Shown one piece after another: positions 3,084-7,090 of a DNA stretch of 7,243 nucleotides; the first letter of the stretch is position 1; each line of letters starts with the position of its first letter. The notes under the pieces were generated by a model, which was not told the DNA's origin, did no database searches, and saw only the letters and a list, made by a program, of their open reading frames with translations. Source of the stretch: Thermoleophilaceae bacterium (GTDB taxonomy: Bacteria > Actinomycetota > Thermoleophilia > Solirubrobacterales > Thermoleophilaceae). The DNA lies in assembly GCA_013696905.1 (NCBI GenBank), contig JACCXP010000247.1:1-7243 (forward strand). The letters run 5' to 3'. The position numbers and the translations under genes were made by a program.

Positions 3084-3755
3084 GTGCCCCGGGGACAGTG
3101 GACAGGCAGGGCCCTCGCCCGCTTCATCACCGCGGTGATGATCACGAGCGGGCTCTTGATGGTGACAGACGCCTTGCTGACGGTCGCCTGGCAGGAGCCG
3201 GTCTCGGCGCTGCTCGCAGGGCGCGAGCAGGGGCGCCTCGACGCCCAGCTCGCGATCGCCGGGCGCCGCGCCGCACGCGAGCGGCGCCGCCTCGGCCCAG
3301 ACGCGCCGTATGCGCGGCTCGCCGCGCGCCACGCCCGCCGCCTGCGCACGGGCGACGCCGTCGGGCGCATCGAGCTGCCGACGCTCGGGCGCTCCTATGC
3401 GGTGGTCGAGGGCACCGACGTCGAGACCCTGCGCAAGGGCCCCGGGCACTACCCGGACACCCCCCTGCCCGGCCGTCGCGGCACGGTCGCGGTCGCCGGG
3501 CACCGCACCACCCACGGCGCGCCGTTTCGCACGGTCGACAGCCTTCGCCGCGGTCAGCTCGTGGTGATGGCGATGCCCTACGGACGCTTCACCTACCGCG
3601 TAGAGGGCACCCGGATCGTGCCCCCGACGGCGCTGTGGGTCAAGCGGCGCGTTGACCATGACCGCCTGATCCTGAGCGCCTGCCATCCGCTCTACTCCGC
3701 CGAGAAGCGGATCGTCGTATTCGCTCGCCAGGTCGCGGTCTCGTCGCCAAGATGA
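3084..3755 (+). CDS. Class E-type sortase (membrane transpeptidase)
   Basis: Sortases are membrane-anchored cysteine transpeptidases that cut LPXTG-like signals between Thr and Gly and join the Thr to peptidoglycan precursors outside the cell. This 223-aa protein has an N-terminal membrane anchor (about 11-36), an Ala/Arg-rich helical linker (45-90), and a catalytic barrel. KGPGHYPDTPLPG (118-130) and VAGHRTTHGAPF (137-148) match class E enzymes and contain the catalytic H140. LSACHPLYSAEKR (197-209) holds the nucleophile C200 and the Arg R209. The GTG at 3084 is the first start after an in-frame stop at 3069-3071; GAGG is only 1 nt away, too close to act as Shine-Dalgarno, so a leaderless start fits better. 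An ATG at residue 19 would cut into the anchor. The last 64 bp overlap the convergent small membrane gene. The likely substrate is the LPFTG protein at 4475-5083. Confidence 0.92.
   Translation: MPRGQWTGRALARFITAVMITSGLLMVTDALLTVAWQEPVSALLAGREQGRLDAQLAIAGRRAARERRRLGPDAPYARLAARHARRLRTGDAVGRIELPTLGRSYAVVEGTDVETLRKGPGHYPDTPLPGRRGTVAVAGHRTTHGAPFRTVDSLRRGQLVVMAMPYGRFTYRVEGTRIVPPTALWVKRRVDHDRLILSACHPLYSAEKRIVVFARQVAVSSPR
3124..3141. repeat. 18-bp perfect palindrome inside the sortase 5' coding region
   Basis: TCATCACCGCGGTGATGA reads identically on both strands and lies 40-57 bases after the sortase start, within the codons for the membrane anchor. Its outer arms TCATCA/TGATGA are the same as those of the inverted repeat before the sigma factor gene at 4393-4407. 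It may be an intragenic operator, or the result of coding constraint plus chance. Confidence 0.4.
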
Positions 3756-3895
3756 TCCCCGCGTGCGCCCGCCGGTTCCGACGCGGACACGGCCGACGGA
3801 TCGCGTGACTCGAGGAAGAGGACGAGGCCGACGAGCAACGCGAGCGAGATCGCGAGCACCGCAAGCCAATAGAGCACCCTCAGGAGCACGTCCAT
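3692..3895 (-). CDS. Small single-pass membrane protein, translationally coupled to the sigma factor
   Basis: A 67-aa protein of unknown function. Residues about 4-28 (from LLRVLYWL to LVLFLE) form one strong hydrophobic helix with an Arg at the N-side; the rest (29-67) is a polar, slightly acidic tail expected outside the membrane. Its reality is supported by gene architecture: the ATG (3893-3895) overlaps the sigma factor's TGA as TGATG, and GAGGAG (3904-3909) lies 8 nt upstream inside the sigma coding sequence. Its last 20 or so codons run antisense to the sortase 3' end (3692-3755). Genes right after ECF sigma factors often encode anti-sigma factors, but this one has only about 5 residues on the cytosolic side, so it cannot be a classical anti-sigma by itself. 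It may assist or sense for the sigma system; that is inference. Confidence 0.65.
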   Translation of the reverse strand: MDVLLRVLYWLAVLAISLALLVGLVLFLESRDPSAVSASEPAGARGDHLGDETATWRANTTIRFSAE

Positions 3896-4377
3896 CAGCC
3901 GAGCTCCTCGCGCAGCTTGCGCAGGGCGCGGTAGACCCGGCCCTCGACCGTCGTCAGGGGGTTGTCTGTCAGGCGGGCTATCTCCGGCACCGTCAGGTCG
4001 GCTCCGAAGCGCAGCGCCACCGCGTCGCGCTCCTCGGCGGAGAGCGTCGCGAGAGCGCGCCCGAGCGCATCGCGATCCTCGAGCCGGTCGAGGCCCGGTG
4101 CCTCCATGCTCGTGCGTGCGCCGACCTTCTCGAGCGCCCGCCCCTCGGCGGCGCGACGGCGGTGGTGGTCGCGCACGAGGTTGAGCGCGATCGAGTAGAG
4201 CCAGGTCTTCTCGCTCGCGCGGCGGCGATCGAAGCGCGTGCGTGCGCCGTAGGCTCGCTCGAAGGTGTCGGCCAGCAGGTCCTCGGCAAGCGCCCGGTCG
4301 CCCGTCCGGTAGGCGAGAAAGCCGAACAGCGCCTGGGCGTGCTCCGCGTAGATGCGCTCGAAGTCGCTATCGCGCAT
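3895..4377 (-). CDS. ECF-type RNA polymerase sigma factor
   Basis: A 160-aa group 4 (ECF) sigma factor that would direct RNA polymerase to a small set of promoters. Region 2 spans about 8-75: AEDLLADTFERAY (31-43, core binding/2.2) and KTWLYSIALNLVRDHHRR (57-74, -10 recognition). Region 4 spans about 104-158, with the helix-turn-helix LTVPEIARLTDNPLTTVEGRVYRAL (128-152) for the -35. There is no region 1.1 or 3, as is normal for ECF factors, and no C-terminal extension. The start ATG at 4375-4377 has GAGGGA (4389-4394) 11 nt upstream. Its stop overlaps the start of the small membrane gene. The divergent LPFTG protein gene and the nearby sortase suggest it governs cell-envelope functions. No zinc-type anti-sigma gene is next to it, so its control must come from an unconventional neighbour or from elsewhere. 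Confidence 0.92.
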   Translation of the reverse strand: MRDSDFERIYAEHAQALFGFLAYRTGDRALAEDLLADTFERAYGARTRFDRRRASEKTWLYSIALNLVRDHHRRRAAEGRALEKVGARTSMEAPGLDRLEDRDALGRALATLSAEERDAVALRFGADLTVPEIARLTDNPLTTVEGRVYRALRKLREELG

Positions 4378-4388
4378 CGGCTCGCCGG

Positions 4389-4394
4389 TCCCTC
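4389..4394 (-). promoter_or_regulatory. Ribosome binding site of the sigma factor gene
   Basis: GAGGGA on the minus strand, 11 nt before the ATG at 4377. Two of its bases overlap the TCATCA/TGATGA inverted repeat, so a bound protein or a hairpin there could affect sigma expression. Confidence 0.5.
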
Positions 4395-4407
4395 ATCACG
4401 CTGATGA
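4393..4407. repeat. Inverted repeat TCATCA-CGC-TGATGA between sigma and the LPFTG gene
   Basis: Six-base perfect arms with a 3-nt centre, in the 97-bp divergent intergenic region, 16-30 bases upstream of the sigma ATG and about 68 bases upstream of the LPFTG gene start. It is a candidate operator. A lone TGATGA half-site also covers the LPFTG gene start (4473-4478), and the arms recur in the sortase gene at 3124-3141. Confidence 0.45.
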
Positions 4408-4442
4408 TCGTCACCGCGTCAGATGGGCTCGATCGCCGGTAA

Positions 4443-4468
4443 GGAATCGCGACGCTCGTGCGTATAAG
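4443..4468 (+). promoter_or_regulatory. Putative promoter of the LPFTG protein gene (leaderless)
   Basis: TATAAG at 4463-4468 matches the -10 consensus at five of six positions and ends 6 nt before the ATG at 4475, so the transcript would start at or next to the start codon. Upstream, GGAAT (4443-4447) with CGTAT (4461-4465) recalls the GGAAC...CGT pattern of ECF promoters, but the 13-nt spacing is shorter than the usual 15-17. Either a housekeeping or an ECF promoter is possible; I lean to a -10-driven leaderless start. Confidence 0.45.
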
Positions 4469-4474
4469 GCTGTG

Positions 4475-5083
4475 ATGAGAAGCTCGCACGACAACCAAAT
4501 CCCCGCCGACCTCGTTCACGTGGTCGAGCGGCTCTCGAGCGAGAAGCCGGAGCTAAGCGCCCTCGAGCTTGACCAGGTCAAGCAGCGGGCGCGCAAACAG
4601 GTCGCACGGAGGGCATCGACCCCGCGACAGAAAGGAATCGTCGTGAAGTCACGTCTAGCTATCACCAGCATGCTCGTCGTCGGAGTGCTGCTCAGCGCCA
4701 TGGGAGGCGCAGGCATCGCCGACGAGCAGAGCGCAAGCCGCGCCCAGTACGGCAAGCAGGAGCCGACCGTCGCGGTGCCGGCCGGCGAGAACCCGGTCCC
4801 CGCCGCGGCAGGCACGGCCGGCCAGGTGCAGTCCGCACCCACGCCGACCCTCGTGCCCGATCGTCCGCAGTCCGAAGTCGCCGGCGAGGTGGCCGAGGAC
4901 GAGGTCGCGCCGGCTCGCAAGGCCGATCCGGCTGACGACGTCGAGCCGGCTGCGCAGGTCGCAGCCGACGGCGACGAGCAGCTCCCGTTCACCGGCTTCG
5001 CCGCCATCCCCGTGCTGCTCGCGGGCCTGGCGCTGCTGGCCACCGGGCTCGTTCTGCGCCGTCGCATGCCGCAGGGCCTCTAG
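4475..5083 (+). CDS. LPFTG sortase-substrate surface protein with cytosolic N-terminal segment
   Basis: A 202-aa protein with an unusual layout. Residues 1-56 are charged and helical (DLVHVVERLSSEKPELSAL, then Lys/Arg-rich to about 53), looking cytosolic. Residues 61-82 are hydrophobic and end in AGIA, a possible signal peptidase site. Residues 83-168 form an Ala/Pro/Glu-rich linker likely to be extended outside the cell. LPFTG (170-174) is followed by a membrane segment (175-194) and an RRR tail, the complete cell-wall sorting signal. The substrate partner is presumably the sortase at 3084. The ATG at 4475 has no Shine-Dalgarno but follows a -10 hexamer, fitting a leaderless start. A second in-frame start, GTG at 4643 (residue 57), has AAAGGA 6 nt before it and would give a 146-aa protein beginning with a normal signal peptide. 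The N-terminal segment looks like a small protein-binding domain and could contact the divergent sigma factor; that is inference. Confidence 0.85.
   Translation: MRSSHDNQIPADLVHVVERLSSEKPELSALELDQVKQRARKQVARRASTPRQKGIVVKSRLAITSMLVVGVLLSAMGGAGIADEQSASRAQYGKQEPTVAVPAGENPVPAAAGTAGQVQSAPTPTLVPDRPQSEVAGEVAEDEVAPARKADPADDVEPAAQVAADGDEQLPFTGFAAIPVLLAGLALLATGLVLRRRMPQGL
4631..4645 (+). promoter_or_regulatory. Internal RBS and GTG start giving a signal-peptide-only form
   Basis: AAAGGA (4631-4636) sits 6 nt before GTG 4643-4645, in frame with the LPFTG protein. The peptide starting there (M/V-KSRLAITSMLVVGVLL...) has the basic n-region, hydrophobic core and A-type cleavage site of a standard signal peptide. 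The site could be real alternative initiation, or the sequence could just be the codons for QKGIV. Confidence 0.45.
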
Positions 5084-5122: not shown

Positions 5123-7090
5123 TCATTGGATCAAGGGGAGGCGGGCCGCCACGGCCCGCCTCTCCCACGTCCGGCGCGAAGCGGTGTCAAAGCGCCGGCT
5201 CGCCTCGCGCAGCACGTCCTCGCGCGGGTTGAGGCGGCGCGCACGCCGCAGCTGGGGGCGCGGGTCGAGGCCCGCCGCCGCGCGTGTGAGCGCGAGTCCG
5301 TAGTGGTACTGCCAGTTGCCGGGATCGCGCCGGACGGCGTTCTGCATCGCCTGCACGGCCAGGCGGCGAGAGCCGAGCCGGACGTCGCAGTAGCCGAGGA
5401 TCTCCCACGGCTCGGAGCGCACGCTGACGGCCGAGAGCGAGCCGAGCGCCGCATCCACAGCCGCCGGGCAGCGCCCCGCCTGGAACTCGTCGACGCTCCG
5501 CTCGAGCCGTCGCTCGGAGACGGCCAGGAGCGCCGGCGTCAGCGCGAGCAGCGCGACACCGAGGGAGACCAGCAGTCGCGTACGGCGGCTCGGAGCCGGC
5601 AGCCCACCCTGCCCGGGCGGTGCCGCGAGCGCGACGCCACCGATGCAGAAGAGCCACTCCGTGACGGCCGTCATCTCCCAGTCCCAGTCGTTGCCGGCGT
5701 GCACGGCCCACGCAAGCGCCGCGCCCAGCGGGGCGGCGTAGATCGCGCGCTCACCCCCGCGCGCGTGGATGGCGAGCGCCGCCAGGACCGGAACGAGCGC
5801 CGTGGCGAGCAGCACGATCCCCACCACGCCGAGCTCGGCCAGCACCTCGAGATAGAGCGAGTGGGCATCCTGCACAGTGAAGTCCGAGGGGCGCCGCTGA
5901 GCCCACAGCATGCGATACGTGCCTGCCCCCGAGCCGGTCACGCGGCGCTCCGCGAAGCCCTCGAGCGCCACGCGCCAGTGGTAGATGCGCCCGTTGTTGC
6001 CGAACTGGGTCAGCCGGTCGCGCGTGTCGCCCGTCTCCTCGAGCGAGTTGCCCGCCACGAACCGCTCGAGGCTCTCAGCCGCGCGCGCCGGGACGTCGAG
6101 GGCGAGCCCGCCACCCACGCCCACAACGAGCGCAAGCGCAACCACGGCGGCCGTCAGCAGGCGCGCGCTGCGGCGCGCGATCTCAAGCCGGGCGAGACGC
6201 CGGTCGAGCGGCAACATCGCCGTCCGCAGGATCGCCGCGCCGAGCACCGCGAGGCTCACGGTGCGGGCTACGTCCGCTCCCTGGACAATCGCGGCAGGAG
6301 TGGTCGGCTCGGGCGTCGCGAGCAGTCCGGCGCCGTAGCCCGCCCGCACCGCGAGCGCCGCAGGGACGACCGTGGCGATCAGTCCCAGCACCAGCGCCCG
6401 CGGACGCCCGACCACCATGTAGGCGAGGAGGCCGAGCGCCCCGGCGACGATCGCCCCGCGCGAGAAGGTGAAGTAGAGCGTCGTTGCGAGCACGGGCACG
6501 GCGGCCGCGCCGAGCACCCGCGCCGGGCGCGGCTCGCGCGTGCTGCTCGCGAGGTGCAGGCACAGCACGGTCGCGAGCCCCGCGACCAAGCCGAGGGCGT
6601 TCCAGTAGGTGAGCGGATACGAGAGCCGCTCGTTGGAGACGCTCGCGGGGGTGGGCCACAGCTCGGGAAGCAGGCGGCTGACGAGGCCGACGGCGGCCAC
6701 GAGGCTCAGCGCGAGCGCCAGCCCCCACACCAGCCTCCTCATCCGCTCGGAGGAGCGCGAGCCACACCCGAACGCCACGAGCGCGAGCAGGTAGAGCAGC
6801 GTGCGGTCGAACTCGAGCAACGCGCGCGCCGGCGCACCCGACCACGCCGAGGAGGCCAGTTGCCACACGCCGAGCAGGGCGAGCCCGCCGGTCGCCACGG
6901 CGAGCGGACGGCTAAAGCCGGCGAACGGATCCTCGCCGAGGGTGACTCGCAGGACCAGCAGCAGCGCGAGCGCGAGCGCGGCGAGCGCCGGCTCCCCGGG
7001 GAAGAAGCCGCCGGCACTGAAGCACAGGTAAACCGTCAGCGCGCCGGGGACGAGCCACTCCGCGGCGCTCACTCGGCGGAGCACTGCCAT
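5123..7090 (-). CDS. O-antigen ligase/polymerase family (Wzy/WaaL-like) membrane protein with TPR-like C-terminus
   Basis: A 655-aa protein with about 12-14 hydrophobic helices (first at about 12-29, last at about 504-524). Family features are FTFSRGA (207-213), the large extracytoplasmic loop with NNGRIYHWRVALEGF (365-379) and TGSGAGTY (385-392), and QDAHSLYLEVLAELGVVG (407-424), the Wzy_C/WaaL His-containing motif. Such proteins polymerise or ligate undecaprenyl-linked glycans outside the membrane. The part after about 528 is soluble and looks like degenerate TPR helices (AVDAALGSLSAVSV; AVQAMQNAVRRDPGNWQYHYGLALTRA), a known architecture in this family. In a bacterium probably lacking lipopolysaccharide the likely job is exopolysaccharide polymerisation or glycan transfer to a protein or wall polymer; the acceptor is unknown. 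The ATG at 7088-7090 lacks a Shine-Dalgarno, but TATCAT lies 7 nt upstream. No glycosyltransferase genes are visible beside it. Confidence 0.88.
   Translation of the reverse strand: MAVLRRVSAAEWLVPGALTVYLCFSAGGFFPGEPALAALALALLLVLRVTLGEDPFAGFSRPLAVATGGLALLGVWQLASSAWSGAPARALLEFDRTLLYLLALVAFGCGSRSSERMRRLVWGLALALSLVAAVGLVSRLLPELWPTPASVSNERLSYPLTYWNALGLVAGLATVLCLHLASSTREPRPARVLGAAAVPVLATTLYFTFSRGAIVAGALGLLAYMVVGRPRALVLGLIATVVPAALAVRAGYGAGLLATPEPTTPAAIVQGADVARTVSLAVLGAAILRTAMLPLDRRLARLEIARRSARLLTAAVVALALVVGVGGGLALDVPARAAESLERFVAGNSLEETGDTRDRLTQFGNNGRIYHWRVALEGFAERRVTGSGAGTYRMLWAQRRPSDFTVQDAHSLYLEVLAELGVVGIVLLATALVPVLAALAIHARGGERAIYAAPLGAALAWAVHAGNDWDWEMTAVTEWLFCIGGVALAAPPGQGGLPAPSRRTRLLVSLGVALLALTPALLAVSERRLERSVDEFQAGRCPAAVDAALGSLSAVSVRSEPWEILGYCDVRLGSRRLAVQAMQNAVRRDPGNWQYHYGLALTRAAAGLDPRPQLRRARRLNPREDVLREASRRFDTASRRTWERRAVAARLPLIQ

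Follow-up and report, generated by a model that had tools for sequence, protein, structure and literature searches.

What holds an extracytoplasmic function (ECF) sigma factor in check when no classical anti-sigma gene lies next to it? The question is raised by a contig of a Thermoleophilaceae bacterium (JACCXP010000247.1; G000:C193 in our numbering) that was analyzed over its whole length of 7,243 nucleotides and is called the window here. On it, an ECF sigma factor gene is divergent from a gene for a protein with an LPFTG sorting signal. An original prediction made from the sequence alone had joined these two with a sortase and a small membrane protein into a wall-sensing module of four genes, in which the LPFTG protein and/or the small membrane protein would act as the anti-sigma factor. 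On re-examination, its four genes, their coordinates, overlaps and divergent layout all proved correct, and a Pfam scan of eight window proteins agreed that no anti-sigma domain is found among them. What it had overlooked are a Wzy-type neighbor, an ECF-type promoter at the LPFTG gene and a conserved start codon inside that gene.

Comparison of the locus with its relatives leads us to favor, with some reserve, the following answer: The LPFTG gene would be both the conserved partner of the sigma factor and nearly its only recognizable promoter target, and its two starts would give rise to a membrane anti-sigma factor and to a secreted, sortase-anchored form. In the sequences compared, the pairing of the two genes, the promoter, the internal start and the layout of the domains are all conserved. 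The dual start and the nearly devoted promoter would be what is new relative to known pairs of sigma and anti-sigma factors.

The sigma factor and its constant partner

Relatives were searched with the LPFTG protein against 61 genomes, with an alignment of it against 232 genomes of the order, and with a sigma alignment against the named genome collection. A separate protein search gave 289 homologues at E <= 0.01 from 7998 candidates scored, with 120 of the 289 listed and 16 inspected. The window's sigma factor tests as ECF type, having only regions 2 and 4 of sigma-70, with PF04542 and PF08281 above cut-off and 79.3 bits for the NCBIfam sigma70-ECF model (cut-off 42.9). Its closest relatives, with up to 72% full-length identity, come mostly from Thermoleophilaceae, Solirubrobacteraceae and Solirubrobacterales assemblies.

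The constant unit in 39 genomes, called the module below, is a sigma factor and a protein with a two-helix N-terminal domain (N-domain) of about 50 residues and a membrane helix, encoded in one locus. Of these genomes, 38 were found by domain profile; the N-domain gene of G079 (L174) was missed by the profile and examined separately. When identical copies are merged there are 41 distinct N-domain genes, and a sigma factor is present in the locus of all 41. The two genes are divergent with a gap of 48–99 bp in 25 cases, divergent but 2–3.3 kb apart in three and in tandem in 11, while two were scored as convergent, one of them owing to a misplaced start of the second L031 copy. This second copy of the module (L031:4437-5316) has a sigma factor that matches only profile positions 1–124 and an N-domain gene whose tail, by eye, lacks a membrane helix. 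The 21 named sigma loci (L044–L064), which belong among the 39 genomes, all contain the N-domain gene, and 19 of them also a Wzy gene, the two others being contigs of 7.5 and 3.5 kb. Wzy is in the locus in 35 of the 39 genomes, and three of the remaining four loci lie on contigs under 7.5 kb; this usual third neighbor hints at a role in exopolysaccharide biology.

Seen from the sigma factor, the subfamily occurs at E <= 1e-40 in 40 of the 232 genomes of the order, 37 of which also have an N-domain gene. A sample of 399 genomes of the class contains 30 that the N-domain profile matches; all but one belong to this order, and the match in the exception (G234, E 3.3e-4) is marginal. Across the 31 loci that hold all three genes, the distances of sigma factor and N-domain protein correlate beyond what they share with Wzy (partial r 0.26, reached in 6 of 2000 permutations), compared to 0.04 for Wzy and N-domain protein given sigma, which may be taken as a weak sign.

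The homologues share the N-terminal stretch of about 50 residues (consensus DLxxVAxRLxxxRPxLSxLELDxxKxRA) and the membrane helix that follows it. The outer part is variable; one set of homologues has an LPXTG tail there, and other sets differ. For the window's protein, AlphaFold2 predicts helices at residues 11–23, 29–47, 57–77 and 177–197 with a disordered linker; the mean predicted local distance difference test score (pLDDT) is 64.5, with 83–89 in blocks of residues 11–40, and the predicted template modeling score (pTM) is 0.24. LPFTG at residues 170–174, the helix at 177–197 and an RRR tail are the features of an LPXTG protein, and PF00746 matches three of 38 family members, weakly. After the first membrane helix comes a motif, usually AQY (window 4742–4750); at least 90% of 38 members, with and without LPXTG alike, retain its Q and Y.

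The predicted layout of the LPFTG protein appears to be that of a single-pass anti-sigma factor, though by sequence it does not appear to be a member of any known anti-sigma family. Of the two candidates that the original prediction had named for this role, the LPFTG protein is strongly though indirectly supported by its conserved N-domain and helix, its variable tail and the sigma factor in the same locus, whereas the small membrane protein is found in just four of 39 genomes. Judged by these sequence features, the LPFTG protein is likely the anti-sigma factor of the adjacent sigma factor.

Among known systems, BldN and RsbN of Streptomyces are an ECF factor and a small membrane anti-sigma factor linked to surface proteins, and the window's pair would resemble them in combining an ECF factor with a membrane partner and a link to a surface protein. 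The closest solved sigma structure is 6dxo chain A (E 4.7e-20), which we take to be BldN. However, the window's sigma factor is not of the BldN family (85.5 bits for TIGR02952, cut-off 206.45), and to our knowledge RsbN has no LPXTG tail. A structure of the BldN/RsbN pair exists, as stated in the accessible part of PMC7406223.

With class I anti-sigma factors (RseA, RsiW, RskA, ChrR), the LPFTG protein would share a cytoplasmic N-domain, often a single membrane helix and a variable outer domain. Yet class I domains average 101 residues according to the accessible text of PMC7406223, compared to about 50 here, and no class I family was seen among the 25 of 31 matched Pfam families listed. Residues 1–56 of the window's protein contain no Cys and therefore no Hx3Cx2C motif. 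In size, the protein is nearest to the class II factor CnrY, the anti-sigma factor of CnrH in Cupriavidus metallidurans, which has a short two-helix cytoplasmic part (PMC7406223, accessible text). The LPFTG N-domain is likewise predicted to form two helices within about 50 residues, which falls in the class II size range, and its ECF partner is encoded nearby. A sorting tail and a second start are not described for CnrY in the accessible part of that source (PMC7406223), and no CnrY chain was among the 23 PDB matches at E <= 10, a kind of search that short domains may escape. Compared to LPXTG surface proteins, the LPFTG motif, membrane helix and basic tail are alike and sortase genes exist in 25 of 28 module genomes, but here a conserved cytoplasmic domain that is paired with a sigma factor is part of the same reading frame. 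Identification of the N-domain as a known anti-sigma domain by sequence was rejected, as none was found among the Pfam families listed or in the PDB.

One promoter and two putative starts

Directly upstream of the long ATG lies a conserved 29-base motif, TCAGGAAaCGGgCcgCTCGTTCGTATAAG (28.6 bits), that is present in 39 of the 41 genes, the profile having been trained on these same sites. With its GGAA and CGTAT boxes, the motif is of ECF type. In the window, the CGT is placed 14 nt before the ATG at 4475, and in all 24 LPXTG-tailed genes this distance is 13–16 nt, with a Shine-Dalgarno match of at least five bases at the long start in only one of them; leaderless transcription of the LPFTG gene is therefore predicted. 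The 14 genes without LPXTG are mixed: Seven have a leader of 30–70 nt, six of these seven with a Shine-Dalgarno match of at least five bases at the long start, another six look leaderless, and L181 has no real site (promoter score 4.4). Leaderless mRNAs are common in Mycobacterium tuberculosis, another actinobacterium (PMC3898074, accessible part).

Genome-wide, a promoter pattern allowing up to two mismatches had 31 sites in 26 of 32 genomes (reversed control: 3). Since 29 of the 31 lie in the module (25 genomes), the sigma factor appears to be nearly devoted to it and, on this pattern, to the LPFTG gene. The two sites elsewhere are in G185 and in G223, the latter before a gene for a secreted protein (L191:1501-1700, G223:C6). 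An earlier pattern with up to three mismatches in 16 genomes gave 13 sites, 10 of them in the module (control: 0) and the others in G223 (two) and G000 (one, C201). Further profile sites of at least 15 bits were found at L041:1610 (minus strand, 25.6 bits), again before a gene for a secreted protein, in L057, and before short paralogues of the LPFTG gene in L045 (at 6432, minus strand) and L058 (at 5675, minus strand). The secreted-protein promoters in L041 and G223 are possible further targets of the sigma factor. A sigma-type promoter at Wzy was rejected, no site of at least 15 bits being found directly before a Wzy gene in the loci scanned.

Directly before the membrane helix, the homologues read [MVL][KR][STG]R, and in the window the first of these codons is a GTG at 4643 preceded by AAAGGA. 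We tallied this internal site in 38 genes, excluding the second L031 copy and both L039 copies, which are altered or cut. A start codon is found there in 24 of 24 LPXTG-tailed genes and four of 14 others (Fisher 2e-6, though the relatedness of the genomes means that these tests overstate independence). Combined with a Shine-Dalgarno match of at least four bases the counts are 22/24 and 4/14, and with one of at least five bases 17/24 and 1/14. When the seven codons before the internal start were redrawn among synonyms according to each locus's own codon use, 1.86 genes were expected to have a match of at least five bases, and the observed 17 were reached in none of 100,000 draws; for matches of at least four bases, 15.26 were expected compared to 22 observed. 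The match is built by varied codon pairs (21 distinct among the 24 24-mers), and elsewhere in the loci 267 of 6318 in-frame start codons have such a match. All non-Met codons at the internal site of the LPXTG-tailed set are GTG or TTG, and all three Leu codons are TTG, the local share of which is 2–15%. As signal peptides are generally understood, the short form made from this start would open with a typical one, ending in GLA/ALG-like sites. In G181 and G027, a paralogue consists of the short form alone, i.e., without N-domain but with the same promoter.

How the LPFTG gene could serve the sigma factor

The cytoplasmic two-helix domain of the long form would bind and hold the sigma factor as the two-helix CnrY does. 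An envelope signal would free the sigma factor, and transcription from TAAGGAATC..CGTATAAG would then give an mRNA whose 5' end coincides, or nearly so, with the long ATG. Leaderless initiation at this ATG would replenish the anti-sigma form as negative feedback, and the internal AAAGGA..GTG would yield the short form as the output, exported by its Sec-type signal peptide and anchored by a sortase through its LPFTG tail. If true, one reading frame would hold both a regulator and the output of that regulator, and the mode of initiation, leaderless or by Shine-Dalgarno sequence, would choose between them, under an ECF sigma factor devoted almost wholly to one gene; the balance of leaderless and led initiation on one actinobacterial mRNA would become testable. 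The LPFTG protein would then also be the first known sortase-anchored anti-sigma factor and would link the wall physically and directly to transcription.

Several observations weigh against this proposal. All genome counts derive from related genomes, and the pooled ratio of nonsynonymous to synonymous changes (pN/pS) in the N-domain, 0.49 over ten pairs, is only moderately low. No anti-sigma family was among the 25 of 31 matched Pfam families listed for the 38 members searched (DUF3040 matches four members, best E 7e-4), and the N-domain alignment found no anti-sigma relative in the PDB (best E 0.12). Three of the 40 sigma-positive genomes (G180, G148 and G174) show no N-domain gene. In G180, a contig end interrupts the locus. 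G148 and G174 are the two weakest sigma hits; none of their listed reading frames encodes an N-domain, their best promoters (15.2 and 1.7 bits) are unconvincing, and their sigma factors seem to belong to another subfamily. The promoter pattern derives from sites of the module itself and has no match in six of the 32 genomes, which means that weaker targets may be overlooked. At the internal start, L032 and L055 have no Shine-Dalgarno match. The LPFTG-tailed L174 of G079 reads CTC there, which brings the overall tally to 24 of 25 LPXTG-tailed homologues; its possible long starts are preceded by a strong Shine-Dalgarno-like stretch. Finally, cleavage at the GLA/ALG-like site of the helix may occur in both forms and would then release the N-domain.

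The proposal could be carried further to a wall-tethered anti-sigma factor: The long form would retain its cytoplasmic sigma-binding domain and be bonded covalently at its far end to peptidoglycan by a sortase, a single protein thereby tethering the sigma factor to the wall; the free short form from the second start would compete for sorting sites, and the balance of anchored long and short forms would report the state of the wall. We regard this extension as doubtful. We know of no sortase-anchored anti-sigma factor described before. In the literature searched, with most subscription papers outside its scope, no listed paper appeared to describe a sortase-anchored or LPXTG-tailed anti-sigma system, and searches on anti-sigma isoforms from internal translation and on sortases of Thermoleophilia gave no match.

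Conversely, the long form alone might matter, as an anti-sigma factor of the membrane that has acquired a sorting tail, and the internal start might be a relic or unused. Ten of the 14 members without LPXTG indeed keep the N-domain without an internal start, as does the LPFTG-tailed L174. We nevertheless find this unlikely, given that the unusual codons of 17 of 24 genes (1.86 expected) keep the Shine-Dalgarno match, that the non-Met codons of the LPXTG-tailed set are GTG or TTG, and that paralogues with only the short form exist.

Less probable still is that the N-terminal 56 residues are an extended signal-peptide or localization region, or a translated leader, in which case the sigma factor would drive a wall protein and be controlled otherwise. 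Some LPXTG proteins are known to have a long n-region, and the lack of a sequence match to anti-sigma domains would be explained. However, the N-domain is kept in members without LPXTG tail, even in G175 and G177 where no sortase was found, and its two well-predicted helices and constant pairing with the sigma factor also speak against this reading.

That the sortase, the small membrane protein, the LPFTG protein and the sigma factor jointly form one wall sensor, as in the original prediction, now seems very unlikely. The four genes do lie together in the window (G000), G013, G025 and G008, but in the remaining 35 of the 39 genomes neither the sortase nor the small gene occupies this position, contig ends cutting some of these loci. 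The conserved four-gene unit is thus rejected, and the synteny in relatives on which the original prediction had staked its case is largely refuted: A two-gene core of sigma factor and LPFTG gene, usually with Wzy, is syntenic, while the sortase and the small gene are not. Among 28 module genomes, a Pfam search found a sortase in 25, often elsewhere in the genome and at the module in just four; in G094, it is 6.3 kb away. The three genomes in which none was found are G108 (77% complete), G175 and G177, and the N-domain proteins of the latter two have no LPXTG tail. The 67-residue small protein was found solely in loci of the sortase variant, and conservation of its tail says little because the tail is encoded opposite sortase codons. 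These two genes are a local addition; what clearly exceeds chance is the pairing of the sigma factor with the LPFTG protein, together with the promoter, and not the set of four.

It is hardly to be expected that the N-domain binds the sigma factor but aids it as co-activator or membrane recruiter, since most membrane proteins whose genes adjoin those of ECF factors are inhibitory (also PMC7406223, accessible part), though the pairing data are silent on the sign of the interaction.

Features of the window and its surroundings

Table 1. Features of the module and its neighbors in the window
Feature	Positions	Strand	Basis
Sortase	3084..3755	+	PF04203, E 5.3e-28
Small membrane protein, 67 aa, one hydrophobic stretch	3692..3895	-	Homologues in G013, G025, G008
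ECF sigma factor, 160 aa	3895..4377	-	Sigma70_r2 E 1.2e-14, Sigma70_r4_2 E 7.9e-11
ECF-type promoter TAAGGAATC..CGTATAAG	4440..4468	+	Profile and genome-wide pattern searches
Long form of the LPFTG protein (202 aa), candidate membrane anti-sigma factor ending in a sorting tail	4475..5083	+	Family of 289 homologues; sigma factor in same locus for 41/41 genes
Two-helix N-terminal domain (residues 10-48), candidate sigma-binding	4502..4618	+	Family alignment, AlphaFold2 helices
AAAGGA, Shine-Dalgarno-like, upstream of internal start	4631..4636	+	Sequence; codon-resampling tally
Putative short form initiated at internal GTG codon 57, with signal peptide, linker and LPFTG tail	4643..5083	+	Start codon kept in 24/25 LPXTG-tailed homologues
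LPFTG sorting signal, C-terminal membrane helix, basic tail	4982..5083	+	Sequence; AlphaFold2 helix 177-197
Wzy-type O-antigen ligase/polymerase, usual third neighbor	5123..7090	-	PF04932 E 1.5e-13; in locus in 35/39 genomes

The divergent sigma and LPFTG genes (Table 1) are separated by 97 bp. The stop codon of the sigma gene overlaps the start of the small gene as TGATG, and the small gene overlaps the 3' end of the sortase gene by 64 bp (3692–3755). The other genes of the window encode a flavin-reductase-like protein (weak match), an LLM oxidoreductase and a phosphoenolpyruvate carboxykinase. The assembly is 86.2% complete and comprises 2.24 Mb in 434 contigs.

The window's sortase matches the general sortase model TIGR01076 (70.1 bits, cut-off 39.35); class E is its best-scoring class model, but the score of 125.4 bits lies below the cut-off of 160 (NF033747). 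A second sortase gene of the same genome (G000:C285:3509-3906; L002, L043) is 64% identical to it.

Around the module in L032, L035, L036, L037 and L040, exopolysaccharide-type genes (glycosyl- or sugar-transferase-like and chain-length-like) were recognized by eye. By eye, the Wzy proteins of L035:8126-10708 and L031:6752-9067 carry an additional helix-turn-helix-like part at the N-terminus, without significant Pfam match (E 0.21 and 0.49). L059 is titled as a Chlamydiae bacterium, yet it has sigma, N-domain and Wzy genes of the kind found in this order, and the entry is likely mislabeled.

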